Shown in pieces: positions 4,707 through 63,055 of a stretch of 64,000 nucleotides of DNA (position 1 is its first letter; every line of letters starts with the position of its first letter). A model generated the notes under the pieces. It did no database searches. It was not told the origin of the DNA and worked only from the letters and a program-made list of their open reading frames with translations. Source of the DNA: Rikenellaceae bacterium (GTDB taxonomy: Bacteria > Bacteroidota > Bacteroidia > Bacteroidales > Rikenellaceae); the NCBI GenBank assembly GCA_015060075.1, contig SUZE01000009.1:1-64000 (forward strand), in the 5' to 3' direction. The position numbers were made by a program, and so were the translations under genes.

Positions 4707-4750
4707 CTTTTTGGGTATATATACTTGTGGGCGCAAAAATACAAAAACAA

Positions 4751-4782
4751 ACGGAAAACGGAAAACGGAAAACGGAAAACTT
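4751..4782. repeat. Heptamer array (ACGGAAA)4
   Basis: ACGGAAAACGGAAAACGGAAAACGGAAAAC. Confidence 0.95.
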
Positions 4783-8782: not shown

Positions 8783-8840
8783 GGAAAATTGAGAATTGGA
8801 AATTAGTTTTCCGTTTTCCGTTTTCCGCTTTCCGCTTTTT
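8783..8840. repeat. Heptamer arrays TTGAGAA/TTGGAAA then (TTTTCCG)n
   Basis: TTGAGAATTGGAAATTAG followed by TTTTCCGTTTTCCGTTTTCCGCTTTCCG. Confidence 0.9.
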
Positions 8841-18918: not shown

Positions 18919-19998
18919 TTATATGTGCTTCTCTCCCGTGTTGTACTTCACCTCATCGATATACTTCTTGATGTTTTGCTCCTCGGCACGAGGGCAGATG
19001 AGGAGTACATCTTCGGTATCGACTACGATATAATCTCGTAAACCATTGATTACTGCCACCTTGCCTTTTGGTAACGATACCATTGAGGAGCGAGTGTTGT
19101 AGGTGTAGCACCCCTCGGAAGGTTTTACATTGGCATATTTATCCTTGCGTGAAAGTTGGTACAACGAGCCCCAGGTGCCGACATCGCTCCAACCGAAATC
19201 CCCACAGCGAACATATACATTATCCGCCTTCTCCATTACGCCGTAGTCGATGGATATGGCACGGCATTGTGAAAATACCTGCTCTATCGCCTTTGCCTCC
19301 TCTGCGGTACCGAATTTGTCGGCTATCTCCTCGAAGAGAGCGTGATGCTCAGGCAAATGCTCTGCTACGGCATCTATGATGTCACCGACTTTCCATACGA
19401 AGATACCCGAGTTCCAGAAAAATTCGCCCGACTGAATAAATATCTGTGCCAACTCCAAATTTGGTTTCTCGGTGAAGCACTTCACACGCGAGATAGTGGC
19501 ATTGTCGCTCTTTTGAATGTAGCCATAGCCCGTTTCGGGGCGACTTGGAGTGATGCCTATCGTCATCAAAGCCTTGTTCTCGGTCGCAAATTCGATGGTG
19601 TCTTCCACGATGGAGTGGAACTCCGCCTCGTTCAGAATAAGGTGGTCGGCAGGCGTTACTATCATCATTGCATCGGGTGCAACCCTACGCAAGTGGTAGG
19701 CTGCATAGCAGATGCAAGGAGCTGTGTTGCGACCAATAGGCTCACACAAAACCTGCTCTGCCCGCAATTCGGGGATATGCTCCAACACCAAATCTTTGTA
19801 TCGGGCATTTGTTACCACGAGGAAATTCTCGTTAGGAACGAGGTGCGCAAATCGCTCGTAAGTCATTCGCAAGAAAGACTTTCCGGTATCGCAGATGTCG
19901 AGAAATTGCTTCGGCTTACTCTGACGGCTCTCTGGCCAAAAGCGAGTACCGGCACCACCCGCCATAATCACGCAGTAAAGAGGCTTTTTGTTGTTCAT
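18919..19998 (-). CDS. manC: Mannose-1-phosphate guanylyltransferase
   Basis: MAGGAGTRFWPESRQSKPKQFL and YGYIQKSDN. Confidence 0.93.
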   Translation of the reverse strand: MNNKKPLYCVIMAGGAGTRFWPESRQSKPKQFLDICDTGKSFLRMTYERFAHLVPNENFLVVTNARYKDLVLEHIPELRAEQVLCEPIGRNTAPCICYAAYHLRRVAPDAMMIVTPADHLILNEAEFHSIVEDTIEFATENKALMTIGITPSRPETGYGYIQKSDNATISRVKCFTEKPNLELAQIFIQSGEFFWNSGIFVWKVGDIIDAVAEHLPEHHALFEEIADKFGTAEEAKAIEQVFSQCRAISIDYGVMEKADNVYVRCGDFGWSDVGTWGSLYQLSRKDKYANVKPSEGCYTYNTRSSMVSLPKGKVAVINGLRDYIVVDTEDVLLICPRAEEQNIKKYIDEVKYNTGEKHI

Positions 19999-20037: not shown

Positions 20038-20215
20038 AAAACGGAAAACGGAAAACGGAAGACGGAAAACTTTTAATTTAGTGAGTAGTGAGTAGTTGAA
20101 AACTTTCAGCGCTCCCCATAAAGCGACCAACGGGAGTGCCCCCATAAAGGGCGGAACGCCCGCCCCCATAAAGCAGTCGTAGACTGCGCCCCCAGAAATG
20201 TTGCGCCTTGACAAG
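20038..20215. repeat. Composite repeat: ACGGAAA and GTGAGTA arrays, then CCCCCATAAA units with micro-hairpins
   Basis: See finding; ends CAGCGCTCCCC ... TTGCGCCTTGACAAG. Confidence 0.88.
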
Positions 20216-20250
20216 TTTAAGAGTTCGGAAAAGTGAAAACTAATTCTTAA

Positions 20251-20302: not shown

Positions 20303-21019
20303 ATGAAGATTAGACTCTTTACTATACCGAATTGTATCACACTCTGCAATCTGCTGTGTGGTATTGGTTCGATAGTTTGTTCGTTGGTTTACAACGATTT
20401 ACAGTTGGCTTTTGCCCTTGTTGTAGCATCTGCCGTATTCGATTTTTGCGATGGCTTTGCTGCCCGCCTCTTGAAACAATACTCTGCCGTGGGCGTGCAA
20501 CTCGACTCGCTTGCCGATATGGTTTCGTTTGGTGTTGCCCCTGCAATAGCGATGTCGGTAGTTTGTGGTCAGATGCCATCGGCATTCGGCTTGAACGACA
20601 CTTGGAGCGAGGTGTTGTGCTATATCCCGTTGGTGGTTGCGTTGTTGTCGGCACTGCGTTTAGCAAAGTTCAATGTCGATGACTCGCAGAAGGAGGAATT
20701 CGAGGGGTTGCCAACACCGGCTTCGGCAATACTACTCCTCTCGTTGGCTGCCTTGTGCGAGCGATATTCGCTGACAATTGAGTTGGAGTGGTTGGTGCTT
20801 ATCTCGGTAATAGTGGCAATGTTGCTTGTTTCGCCTGTGAGAATGTTCTCGCTCAAATTTCACGAATGGGGATTGGGTAGTACCGATAACAAGATTCGTT
20901 ACGCCTTTCTGCTTACATCGTGCTTGCTGATTTGTCTGCTCCGATTATACGCAATTCCGCTAATTATCGTTCTATATATTGTGGTTTCGGCAATCCGTTG
21001 GATATTTCAAAAAAGATAA
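20303..21019 (+). CDS. pssA: CDP-diacylglycerol--serine O-phosphatidyltransferase
   Basis: CDP-alcohol phosphotransferase motif DFCDGFAARLLKQYSAVGVQLDSLADMVSFG; start MKIRLFTIPN preferred. Confidence 0.93.
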   Translation: MKIRLFTIPNCITLCNLLCGIGSIVCSLVYNDLQLAFALVVASAVFDFCDGFAARLLKQYSAVGVQLDSLADMVSFGVAPAIAMSVVCGQMPSAFGLNDTWSEVLCYIPLVVALLSALRLAKFNVDDSQKEEFEGLPTPASAILLLSLAALCERYSLTIELEWLVLISVIVAMLLVSPVRMFSLKFHEWGLGSTDNKIRYAFLLTSCLLICLLRLYAIPLIIVLYIVVSAIRWIFQKR

Positions 21020-23251: not shown

Positions 23252-23932
23252 TTGAAGACTAAGTATTACATAGTTCCTTTACTCTTTGTTGCAATTGCAA
23301 CGGTACTCTCCGTTGTTGCGATAGATAAGGTGATGCATCGTACTACTCAGCAAGCGAGTATTGAGGTTGCTGAGGTGGAACAACACCTAATCTCTCCCTA
23401 CGATAAGATGTTTCAAGATGTGGGCAAGGAGTATGGCATAGATTGGTTGCTATTGTCTGCCATTGCTTGTGCAGAGTCGGAGTTCCGATTCGATGCAGTG
23501 TCGAGGGCTGGGGCTGTCGGACTGATGCAGATTATGCCTGTAACAGCAAAGAGTATGGGTTACGAGCGAGAACAACTCTTCAATGCCGAAATCTCGGCAG
23601 AGGTTGCAGCGAAACTGCTGCACGAAAATAATAAGATGCTCCATTTGCCACGCAATTTCGACAAGGAAGAGCGTTTGAAGTTTATTCTTGCTTGTTATAA
23701 TGCCGGATACTCCCGTATTGCCGATGCAAGGCGCTTGGCGCACTATTATGAGGACAATGCGGATAAATGGAGTGTAGTAGCGACATATTTGACGCTACTC
23801 TCCGAGCCTGAATACGCTGAACATGAGGTTGTGCAGTCGGGAGAGTTTTATGGCAGTGGTGAAACAATCGACTATGTCAATAAGGTCTTACATATATATA
23901 GATTGTATTGCAGTCGTATAGTGTTATTATAA
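23252..23932 (+). CDS. Lytic transglycosylase (SLT/MltF-like catalytic domain)
   Basis: LLSAIACAESEFRFDAVSRAGAVGLMQIMPVTAKSMG; TTG start codon. Confidence 0.88.
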   Translation: MKTKYYIVPLLFVAIATVLSVVAIDKVMHRTTQQASIEVAEVEQHLISPYDKMFQDVGKEYGIDWLLLSAIACAESEFRFDAVSRAGAVGLMQIMPVTAKSMGYEREQLFNAEISAEVAAKLLHENNKMLHLPRNFDKEERLKFILACYNAGYSRIADARRLAHYYEDNADKWSVVATYLTLLSEPEYAEHEVVQSGEFYGSGETIDYVNKVLHIYRLYCSRIVLL

Positions 23933-23969
23933 CATAAGAGAGCCGAACTGAATTCGGCTCTCTTATGTT
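23931..23969. terminator. Bidirectional terminator, 17-bp perfect stem
   Basis: AACATAAGAGAGCCGAA-ctgaa-TTCGGCTCTCTTATGTT between convergent genes. Confidence 0.85.
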
Positions 23970-23982
23970 ATTATTATGGAGT

Positions 23983-40679: not shown

Positions 40680-40785
40680 AACGGAGAACGGAGAACGGAG
40701 AAGTCTCAGCGCTCTCCTAATAACCTCTAATAACCCCTGACAACCCCTGCTTTCACTTGCGCCTTGACAAGGGTAGGGGTTGTCT
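40680..40785. repeat. Composite repeat copy: (ACGGAGA)3 then CAGCGCTCTCC...TTGCGCCTTGACAAG
   Basis: Shares the 15-mer TTGCGCCTTGACAAG with the 20-kb copy. Confidence 0.85.
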
Positions 40786-40860
40786 ATTCCTACCCATATT
40801 TACAATAAAATTGTAATTCTCTCGTTTTATTTCACGAAATTTACTATCTTTGCAGGTTGT

Positions 40861-51807: not shown

Positions 51808-51828
51808 TCTTTATAAAATAGGGATAAT

Positions 51829-51897
51829 AGGGGTACTGGGGGTACTAAGGGCACTGGGGAAAATCTCCCTAGAACCCCTAGTACCCCCAGAGTTCCT
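51829..51897. repeat. Imperfect 32-bp-arm palindrome between pflB and pflA
   Basis: AGGGGTACTGGGGGTACTAAGGGCACTGGGGA / TCCCTAGAACCCCTAGTACCCCCAGAGTTCCT with 5-nt loop; perfect core GGGGGTACTA/TAGTACCCCC. Confidence 0.85.
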
Positions 51898-51928
51898 AGA
51901 ACTCCCAGGAAAAGTAAAAAGGAAAACT

Positions 51929-55454: not shown

Positions 55455-56954
55455 ATGAAAAGATTTCTCTTCTTTACGCTGTGTTGCATTCTATCTCTAT
55501 CCGTTGCAGCACAAGCCACACGCCCCGTACGAGGTGTTGTGTTCGACAATAACGGTATCCCAATGTCGGGAGCTACTCTTACAGCAGTAGGCTCCACCGA
55601 CAGCAAGTTGTCGGGGACAGACGGAACATTCGAGATGTTGGTTTCTCCCTACACCAAGTTTATCGAGGCGAGCAAGGAGGGCTTTATCTCGGCACAAGCC
55701 GAGGTTGATGGCTCGTACCTTGTATTCAAACTCCAAGTAGATAAGAAGTATGCCGAGAACAAGGCAAAGGCTGAGGAGGAGGCTCGACTTGCAGCACAAA
55801 AGGCCGAAGAGGCGGAGCAGGCTCGTATAGCTGCCGAGAAAGCGGCTGCTGAAAAGGCAGAGCAGGAACGATTGGCTGCCGAGGAGAGAAAACGCATCGA
55901 GGAGGAGAAGCGCATTGCTGCCGAAAAAGCAGCCGCAGAAAAGGCAGAGCGTGAGCGATTGGTTGCCGAGGAGAAGAAGCGTATCGAGGAGGAGAAACGC
56001 ATCGCTGCCGAAAAAGCAGCCGCAGAAAAGGCAGAGCGTGAACGATTGGCTGCCGAGGAGAAGAAGCGTATCGAGGAGGAGAAGCGTATTGCAGCCGAGA
56101 AAGCAGCAGCCGAGAAGGCAGAGCGTGAGCGATTAGCTGCCGAGGAGAAGGCTCGCATCGAAGCGGAGAAAAAACGCATTGCCGAGGAGAAGGCTCGCCT
56201 TGCCGAGGAGAAACGATTGGCTCTCGAAAAGGCAAAAGCCGAAGTAAAGGCGATAAAGAGTGGTGAAGGTGATGCGACAAGGCAGGCGCAGTTGGAGCAG
56301 GAGCATCAAAAAGCGTTAGCGCAACAAGCACTCTTGCAAGAGAAGGCTAAAAAAGCCGAGGCTAAGAAGGCGCGCATTGAGGAGTGGAAGCAGGCATCAT
56401 TGAAGGGCTATCGCTCGATGGTAGAGTTCGCATTTATGATGGATTTCGACTTGATGCCATCGTATAATCTCCACTATATCGGTGGCTATCAAATCAACAA
56501 CTATCTCTATGTCGGAGCAGGAGCAGGCGTTTGTCTGCACGAATCAGCATTTGGCGACAACTCGGTTGCCGAGTGGTCGAAAGAACCACAAGATAGACCT
56601 CTTCCTTTGCAAACTGTAAATGTTCCGGTATTTGCCTATTTCCGCGCAAACTTCATAAATCGCCGTTGCACTCCATACTTTGCTGTGGCTGCGGGGTACA
56701 GATTTTCGACCAAGCACTATTTCAATATGCCTTGGGATAATCAAAGTGAGTATTACAGCACCAGCGGATTGCTGATAAATCCGCAACTCGGTGTCAATCT
56801 CCGTATGACCAAAAGGGCTGATGTCTATCTTGCCGCAGGATTCAATATGCAGCAGATGCCTGTGTTTAATGCAAGCGAATCGACAATGTTCGATGCTAAA
56901 TTCGGCAAGAAGTTCTGTTATGGATTTGATTTGCGACTTGGTTTCACCTTCTAA
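55455..56954 (+). CDS. Carboxypeptidase-regulatory-like N-terminus, TolA-like coiled coil, C-terminal beta-barrel-like domain
   Basis: RPVRGVVFDNNGIPMSGATLTAVGSTDSKLSGTDGTFEM; Glu/Lys/Ala coiled coil; C-terminal YGFDLRLGFTF. Confidence 0.8.
   Translation: MKRFLFFTLCCILSLSVAAQATRPVRGVVFDNNGIPMSGATLTAVGSTDSKLSGTDGTFEMLVSPYTKFIEASKEGFISAQAEVDGSYLVFKLQVDKKYAENKAKAEEEARLAAQKAEEAEQARIAAEKAAAEKAEQERLAAEERKRIEEEKRIAAEKAAAEKAERERLVAEEKKRIEEEKRIAAEKAAAEKAERERLAAEEKKRIEEEKRIAAEKAAAEKAERERLAAEEKARIEAEKKRIAEEKARLAEEKRLALEKAKAEVKAIKSGEGDATRQAQLEQEHQKALAQQALLQEKAKKAEAKKARIEEWKQASLKGYRSMVEFAFMMDFDLMPSYNLHYIGGYQINNYLYVGAGAGVCLHESAFGDNSVAEWSKEPQDRPLPLQTVNVPVFAYFRANFINRRCTPYFAVAAGYRFSTKHYFNMPWDNQSEYYSTSGLLINPQLGVNLRMTKRADVYLAAGFNMQQMPVFNASESTMFDAKFGKKFCYGFDLRLGFTF
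55827..56174 (+). repeat. In-frame 87-bp (29-aa) tandem repeat, ~4 copies
   Basis: IAAEKAAAEKAE(R/Q)ERL(A/V)AEE(K/R)KRIEEEKR repeated. Confidence 0.9.
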
Positions 56955-60656: not shown

Positions 60657-60782
60657 TGAGGAGTGAGGAGAGAGTAGTGAGTAGTTGAAAAACTTTCAGC
60701 GCTCCCCAGTTAGCGAATGAAGTGAGTGCCCCCAGTAATCCATAGTAACCCCCAGAAAACCCTGCGCCGTGATGACGCTCGG
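60655..60782. repeat. Composite repeat copy: (GTGAGGA/GTGAGTA)n then CAGCGCTCCCC and CCCCCAGTAA units
   Basis: GTAGTTGAAAAACTTTCAGCGCTCCCCA shared with the 20-kb copy, which has one fewer A in the A-run. Confidence 0.85.
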
Positions 60783-60810
60783 AGTTCCTACTGCCAAAAA
60801 AGCCAAAAAA

Positions 60811-62970: not shown

Positions 62971-63022
62971 TTTGCTCAATTTTTTGCTACGCAAAAATAA
63001 TATAAAATTTTTAAAAAATGAA

Positions 63023-63055
63023 GTTTTCCGTTTTCCGTTTTCCGCTTTCCGATTA
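63023..63055. repeat. Heptamer array (TTTTCCG)4
   Basis: AGTTTTCCGTTTTCCGTTTTCCGCTTTCCG. Confidence 0.92.

Follow-up and report, generated by a model that had tools for sequence, protein, structure and literature searches.

Studies of small interspersed repeats usually treat the sequence as fixed. The BOX element of Streptococcus pneumoniae follows the plan boxA-boxBn-boxC, in which boxB is one larger repeated module (PMC3049150). Among Bacteroidales, the BrickBuilt MITE of Porphyromonas gingivalis carries terminal inverted repeats that match resident IS elements and contains a uniform 23-nt repeat (PMC4596501). The repeat analysed here is small, non-coding, non-autonomous and interspersed. 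It is probably a BOX-like miniature repeat in which hairpin cassettes are swapped between copies by recombination.

Anatomy and distribution of the repeat

The whole 64,000-nt stretch of DNA that was analysed (the window) contains the reported sequence exactly as the preliminary description had given it, including the repeated unit CCCCCATAAA and two perfect hairpins with 3-nt loops (cassettes B and C in Table 1). The first interior segment had been left there as non-hairpin; it also forms one, with two G·A mismatches (cassette A). The copies near 40.7 and 60.7 kb retain the ends and have a different interior, as had been claimed. The complete A-B-C copy is bounded by a minus-strand nucleotidyltransferase gene (18919-19998) and a plus-strand pssA-like gene (starting at 20303), both read from ORFs.

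Table 1. Features of the modular repeat and its flank in the window.
Feature	Position	Strand	Basis or remark
(ACGGAAA)n and (GTGAGTA)n, short tandem arrays to the left of the element	20038..20099	+	Sequence; typical of the family
Complete modular repeat with three cassettes (A-B-C)	20100..20235	+	Covariance model R1, 126 bits, E 1.8e-30
Conserved left end TTTCAGCGCTCCCC	20104..20117	+	Its GCGC can pair with the right-end GCGC
Four spacer units (C)CCCC-ATAAA / CCCCCAGAAA, cassettes between them	20114..20198	+	Sequence; CC-tract counts
Cassette A, GCGACC-AAC-GGGAGT, hairpin with conserved tandem G·A mismatch	20123..20137	+	Covariation
Cassette B, GGGCG-GAA-CGCCC, perfect hairpin	20149..20161	+	Sequence; recurrence
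Cassette C, GCAGTC-GTA-GACTGC, perfect hairpin	20173..20187	+	Sequence; recurrence
Conserved right end TGCGCCTTGACAAG...AGAGTTCGGAAAA	20202..20235	+	Alignment
Hairpin-less copy, four 10-nt units (CTCCTAATAA/CCTCTAATAA/CCCCTGACAA/CCCCTG)	40700..40791	+	R1, 36.8 bits
Single-cassette copy (A at 60713-60727)	60690..60796	+	R1, 78 bits

Elements measure about 70-150 bp, and their ends are conserved and asymmetric. The left-end consensus is (AAAAC)TTTCAGCGC followed by A or T; the right end reads TGCGCC, T/G-TGAC-A, (A)GGAGTTC and then an A-rich stretch closing with AAAAC. In the alignment of 29 copies the GCGC block at each end never varies, and the mutual complementarity of the ends, GCGC(A)/(T)GCGC, extends over about 4-5 nt. 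Exact TGCGCCTTGACAAG occurs 18 times in the genome. Within the A-B-C copy, CCCCCATAAA occurs twice exactly (20139 and 20163) and twice with a single mismatch (20113 and 20189).

The covariance model R1, built from the alignment of 29 hand-collected copies, found the three window copies, all on the plus strand, and 100 copies across the 1.93-Mb genome, or an estimated 0.5% of it at about 110 nt per copy. Under stricter filters, 121 genomes of the genus yielded many copies in G000, G005, G071, G073, G093 and G101 (25-31 in each of the last five); four others had one to three, and the remaining 111 had none. Among 85,462 species genomes, a diagnostic 20-mer holding cassette B matched six MAGs only, all of them Rikenellaceae/Alistipes and from samples that bear names such as sheep gut and water deer gut; phage records contained no match to the repeat. 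The repeat is confined to one clade of ruminant-gut Alistipes/Rikenellaceae. All genomes are MAGs, in which assembly errors may occur in repeat regions, and some copies are found at contig ends, so that the repeat itself probably interrupts assemblies. A separate repetitive feature of the window, at 55789-56243, consists of five 87-nt tandem repeats coding for a Glu/Ala/Lys-rich, coiled-coil-like stretch.

Hairpin cassettes and their genomic setting

In the 158 distinct interiors collected, hairpins with loops of 3-4 nt number 249, compared with 26.8 ± 4.9 for dinucleotide shuffles. The preliminary description of a conserved scaffold with variable self-complementary inserts is borne out. The same description had called these hairpins hypervariable, a term that the repertoire contradicts: the 48 distinct cassettes are dominated by few stems and fall into about ten recurrent types, nearly all with 3-nt loops. 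These comprise GCGAnn/nnGAGC (A), GGGCG/CGCCC (B), GCAGTC/GACTGC (C), GCACC/GGTGC and ACACC/GGTGT (D), the further stems GGGCT/AGCCC and GCAATC/GATTGC, and single cases. As roughly ten types recur over about 100 copies, interior variation consists mainly of reshuffling and replacement among existing cassettes. An exact 18-mer formed by cassette B and its 3' flank occurs 39 times in the genome.

Cassette A stands out in that the inner pair 5-11 is A-U in 10, C-G in 9 and G-C in 1 of the 21 distinct forms, a pattern of compensatory changes. In all, 98.8% of its cells are paired, and the covariation score is above that of every shuffle and slid control. The cassette's tandem G·A mismatches are almost always retained, and loops vary more than stems. 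Nearest-neighbour DNA folding predicted no fold for cassette A alone, so its pairing rests on covariation rather than on the energy model; cassette B, as DNA, folds at -4.6 kcal/mol. Loops read on the C-rich strand are GAA, GCA, GGA or GTA in 164 of about 268 cases, and cassette C carries GCA 27 times and GTA four times among the collected copies. Loops of the GNA type, like sheared G·A pairs, are stable in single-stranded nucleic acid, whether DNA or RNA. The recurrent compensation in cassette A argues that folding matters, in DNA or in RNA. Elsewhere in the window (23926-23974), a 22-nt inverted repeat with a 5-nt spacer (TTCGGCTCTCTTATGTTATTAT) is 95% complementary and forms a strong hairpin.

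Most copies are intergenic and occur in all gene arrangements. Between co-directional neighbours the element tends to point the same way as the genes (35:17 in G000, p 0.018), and the same-direction bias over four genomes is 67:30 (p 0.0002, orthologues included). This orientation would favour transcription together with the neighbouring genes and speaks for a reading that we nonetheless consider unlikely, namely that the element is a host-useful regulatory RNA or terminator module whose transcript hairpins set mRNA ends or stability and whose sites are kept by selection. The covariation in cassette A fits such a role, as does the C-rich strand, which folds as RNA better than shuffles (z -2.3). 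However, the element also sits between convergent and divergent genes, its hairpins are followed by no T-run, copies devoid of hairpins are common (38 of 167) and the corresponding sites in sister species are often empty. A search of Rfam returned no family match, the sole hit being a 14.9-bit chance match in the flanking array, below the gathering score.

The flanks themselves are asymmetric: repeats of period 6-8 were found in 73 of 179 left flanks, compared with 10 right flanks and no shuffles. Purine-rich 6-8-nt tandem arrays also occur at 60662-60691, 4749-4782, 8805-8838 and 63021-63054, with units elsewhere such as TGCAAAA, GACGAGA and AACTGAG; many of these arrays stand just left of a repeat and others stand where there is none. 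Arrays of this kind are possibly landing sites.

Unit arrays, shared sites and a probable exchange of interiors

Between the conserved ends, the interior usually consists of four C-rich units of 9-10 nt, with zero to three hairpin cassettes of 13-15 nt between them. Hairpin-less interiors are mostly 41-46 nt long, corresponding to four units of 9 or 10 nt, and two or five units are rare. Units resemble each other within one copy more than between copies (mean self-identity 0.69 vs 0.48 at the same lags), and the hairpin-less copy in the window has a lag-10 self-identity of 0.67. Typical units are CCCCTATAA, CTCCTTAAA, CCCTAACGA, CCCTAGAA and GCCCTTACTA in hairpin-less copies and CCCCCAGTAA, CCCCCATAAA, TCCTATTCAA and CGCCATAAA in hairpin-bearing ones.

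Of the 158 interiors, 145 have four or more CC tracts outside the cassettes, and 109 have exactly four. A four-tract G-quadruplex, or i-motif, as the key structure, with the hairpins as mere loop inserts, would account for the usual four units, and 14 of 31 hairpin-less interiors fit a three-tier form with loops of up to 7 nt. We regard this explanation as rather improbable, given that many unit types contain CC only (TCCTATTCAA, CTCCTTAAA and CGCCATAAA) and would build two-tier tracts at best, that 17 interiors have no CCC at all and that the number four may simply be inherited. A universal quadruplex was rejected because of these CC-only tracts.

Several arrays lie outside complete elements or differ from them in their units. 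A near-palindromic block at 51820-51919, in which G-rich units are followed by matching C-rich units (GGGGGTACTAAGGG ... CCCTAGAACCCCTAGTACCCCC), lacks GCGC ends and looks like the unit arrays of the repeat. Expanded CCCCAGTAA arrays with a GCACC-GAA-GGTGC cassette and no conserved ends stand beside a complete copy at L195:6050-6150 and L050:1590-1670. A second unit lineage within the family is suggested by related elements that combine TGTCATTCA/TGCCATT-type units with hairpins of the same GA type (L194:3224-3348, L192:3200-3324, L253:1303-1427 and L259, the last in G091).

The pssA site, compared in 14 genomes, holds one A-B-C copy in G000, two hairpin-less copies in G005, three tandem copies with B and D cassettes in G073 and further related arrays with other stems in G093 and G091. 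Stems at one locus therefore do differ between sister species, a check that the preliminary description had proposed. No copy was present at this site in G071, where the neighbouring gene is also different, in G081, in G110 or in more distant genomes.

When the flanks of all collected copies were compared, 29 pairings, at about 18 loci, had the same orientation; the sole opposite-orientation pairing involves an extra G093 copy whose locus contains a same-orientation copy as well. Interiors differ at the shared sites L018/L209, L020/L200, L160/L203 and L195/L242, and also at L087 and L027. At L041/L206 and L033/L204 essentially just cassette A differs, within nearly identical surroundings, and the window copy that has cassette A alone corresponds to a G005 orthologue (L205) with A and B. 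Shared site, shared orientation and different interiors make independent re-insertion hard to invoke and fit inherited sites with a rewritten middle.

Presence itself also varies, as G005 has six sites that are empty or almost empty (L047, L021, L029, L040, L147 and L168), although some of these could be deletions. The filled L029 site is flanked on both sides by AAAACT, which the empty site has once. This is the one clean case in a target-site duplication test of 127 copies, where the mean shared border string was 5.83 vs 5.36 in permutations, a weak signal. Presence and absence at orthologous sites imply that the element moves or is deleted over time.

Taken as a BOX-like repeat with recombinational exchange, the family would most likely behave as follows. 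Copies would arrive at new sites through some mobilisation route, and recombination among dispersed or tandem copies that share ends, units and stems would then rewrite the interior at the site, whether by gene conversion, unequal crossing-over or differential loss from tandem arrays. Slippage would homogenise the units, and cassettes would be retained because the C-rich strand folds, either as single-stranded DNA in replication or transfer or as RNA. Two or three tandem element copies with a period of about 120-140 nt and slightly different interiors occur at L036, L196, L219 and L260; unequal exchange among tandem copies of this kind is a likely way for interiors to be replaced. Neither an autonomous partner nor a right end standing alone was recognised, and the exact right-end 14-mers inspected all lie within complete elements, except one in a coding stretch.

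A more active form of exchange, in which a system recognises the GCGC ends and swaps cassettes among about 100 copies while keeping the four-tract scaffold and the site orientation, would amount to programmed or structure-driven rewriting rather than passive recombination; we judge it quite improbable. Very little probability attaches to an element of the REP, REPIN or BIME type whose single-stranded hairpins are the substrate of a REP-associated (Y1, RAYT) transposase that spreads it. Many intergenic copies, hairpin units and tandem copies would suit it, but the unit, with fixed left and right ends and a modular middle, does not have the palindrome-plus-tetranucleotide layout. The transposase that the preliminary description had proposed to look for was not found either: a Y1_Tnp match is absent from the element's own genome, whose assembly is 92% complete, and from all nine genomes searched, which include all main carriers and in which controls were detected. 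Reverse transcription or template switching (DGR, retron or group II intron) that writes new self-complementary inserts, template switching having been first suggested for this locus, is scarcely credible despite the differing same-locus interiors and the more variable loops, since G000, G005, G073, G093 and G101 contain no RT and the sixth carrier, G071, a partial, stop-interrupted one only, since cassettes come from a shared repertoire rather than from new sequences, and since a palindrome-perfecting process would erase the tandem G·A mismatches that are retained nearly invariant.

Relation to known repeat systems

A literature search for such repeats in Alistipes and Bacteroidales found no description, which is not proof of absence. 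In this family the ends and the fold are conserved and the units and stems are swapped; the before and after can be seen at orthologous sites of closely related species. The family makes two questions approachable: what selects the small hairpins and the four-unit arrays, and how a non-autonomous repeat evolves when no transposase can be recognised. For rumen and hindgut Alistipes MAGs it serves as a sharp marker of the clade as well.

REPs, REPINs and BIMEs share with this repeat the many small, hairpin-forming intergenic copies and the mosaic arrangement; their architecture is different, and the RAYT/Y1 transposase was not found in the nine genomes. The mobile hairpins of organelles (yeast GC clusters and sponge RHEs; PMC4478555, PMC2800124) are likewise very small, hairpin-forming and spread between genes, but they are organellar and are not described as fixed ends with a four-unit interior.

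BrickBuilt is, like the present repeat, an intergenic and non-autonomous element of Bacteroidales, with a leader and tail flanking a core of about 23-nt tandem repeats (PMC4596501). Here, in contrast, the core is a mix of cassettes and the complementarity of the ends covers about 4-5 nt (GCGC[A]). BOX and the repeat are both intergenic and interspersed, combine conserved left and right modules with a variable number of self-folding middle modules, and differ in module number between genomes at the same site (PMC3049150). The two belong to different phyla, and the likeness observed is one of layout, the present repeat having zero to three cassettes between invariant GCGC ends. Unlike BOX, the present repeat has 13-15-nt hairpins of about ten exchangeable stem types, set among 9-10-nt units that change in concert. 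By this comparison, the layout appears closest to the pneumococcal BOX and, within Bacteroidales, to the BrickBuilt MITE; what is distinctive is the combination of exchangeable hairpin stem types, concerted unit change and the usual count of four units.
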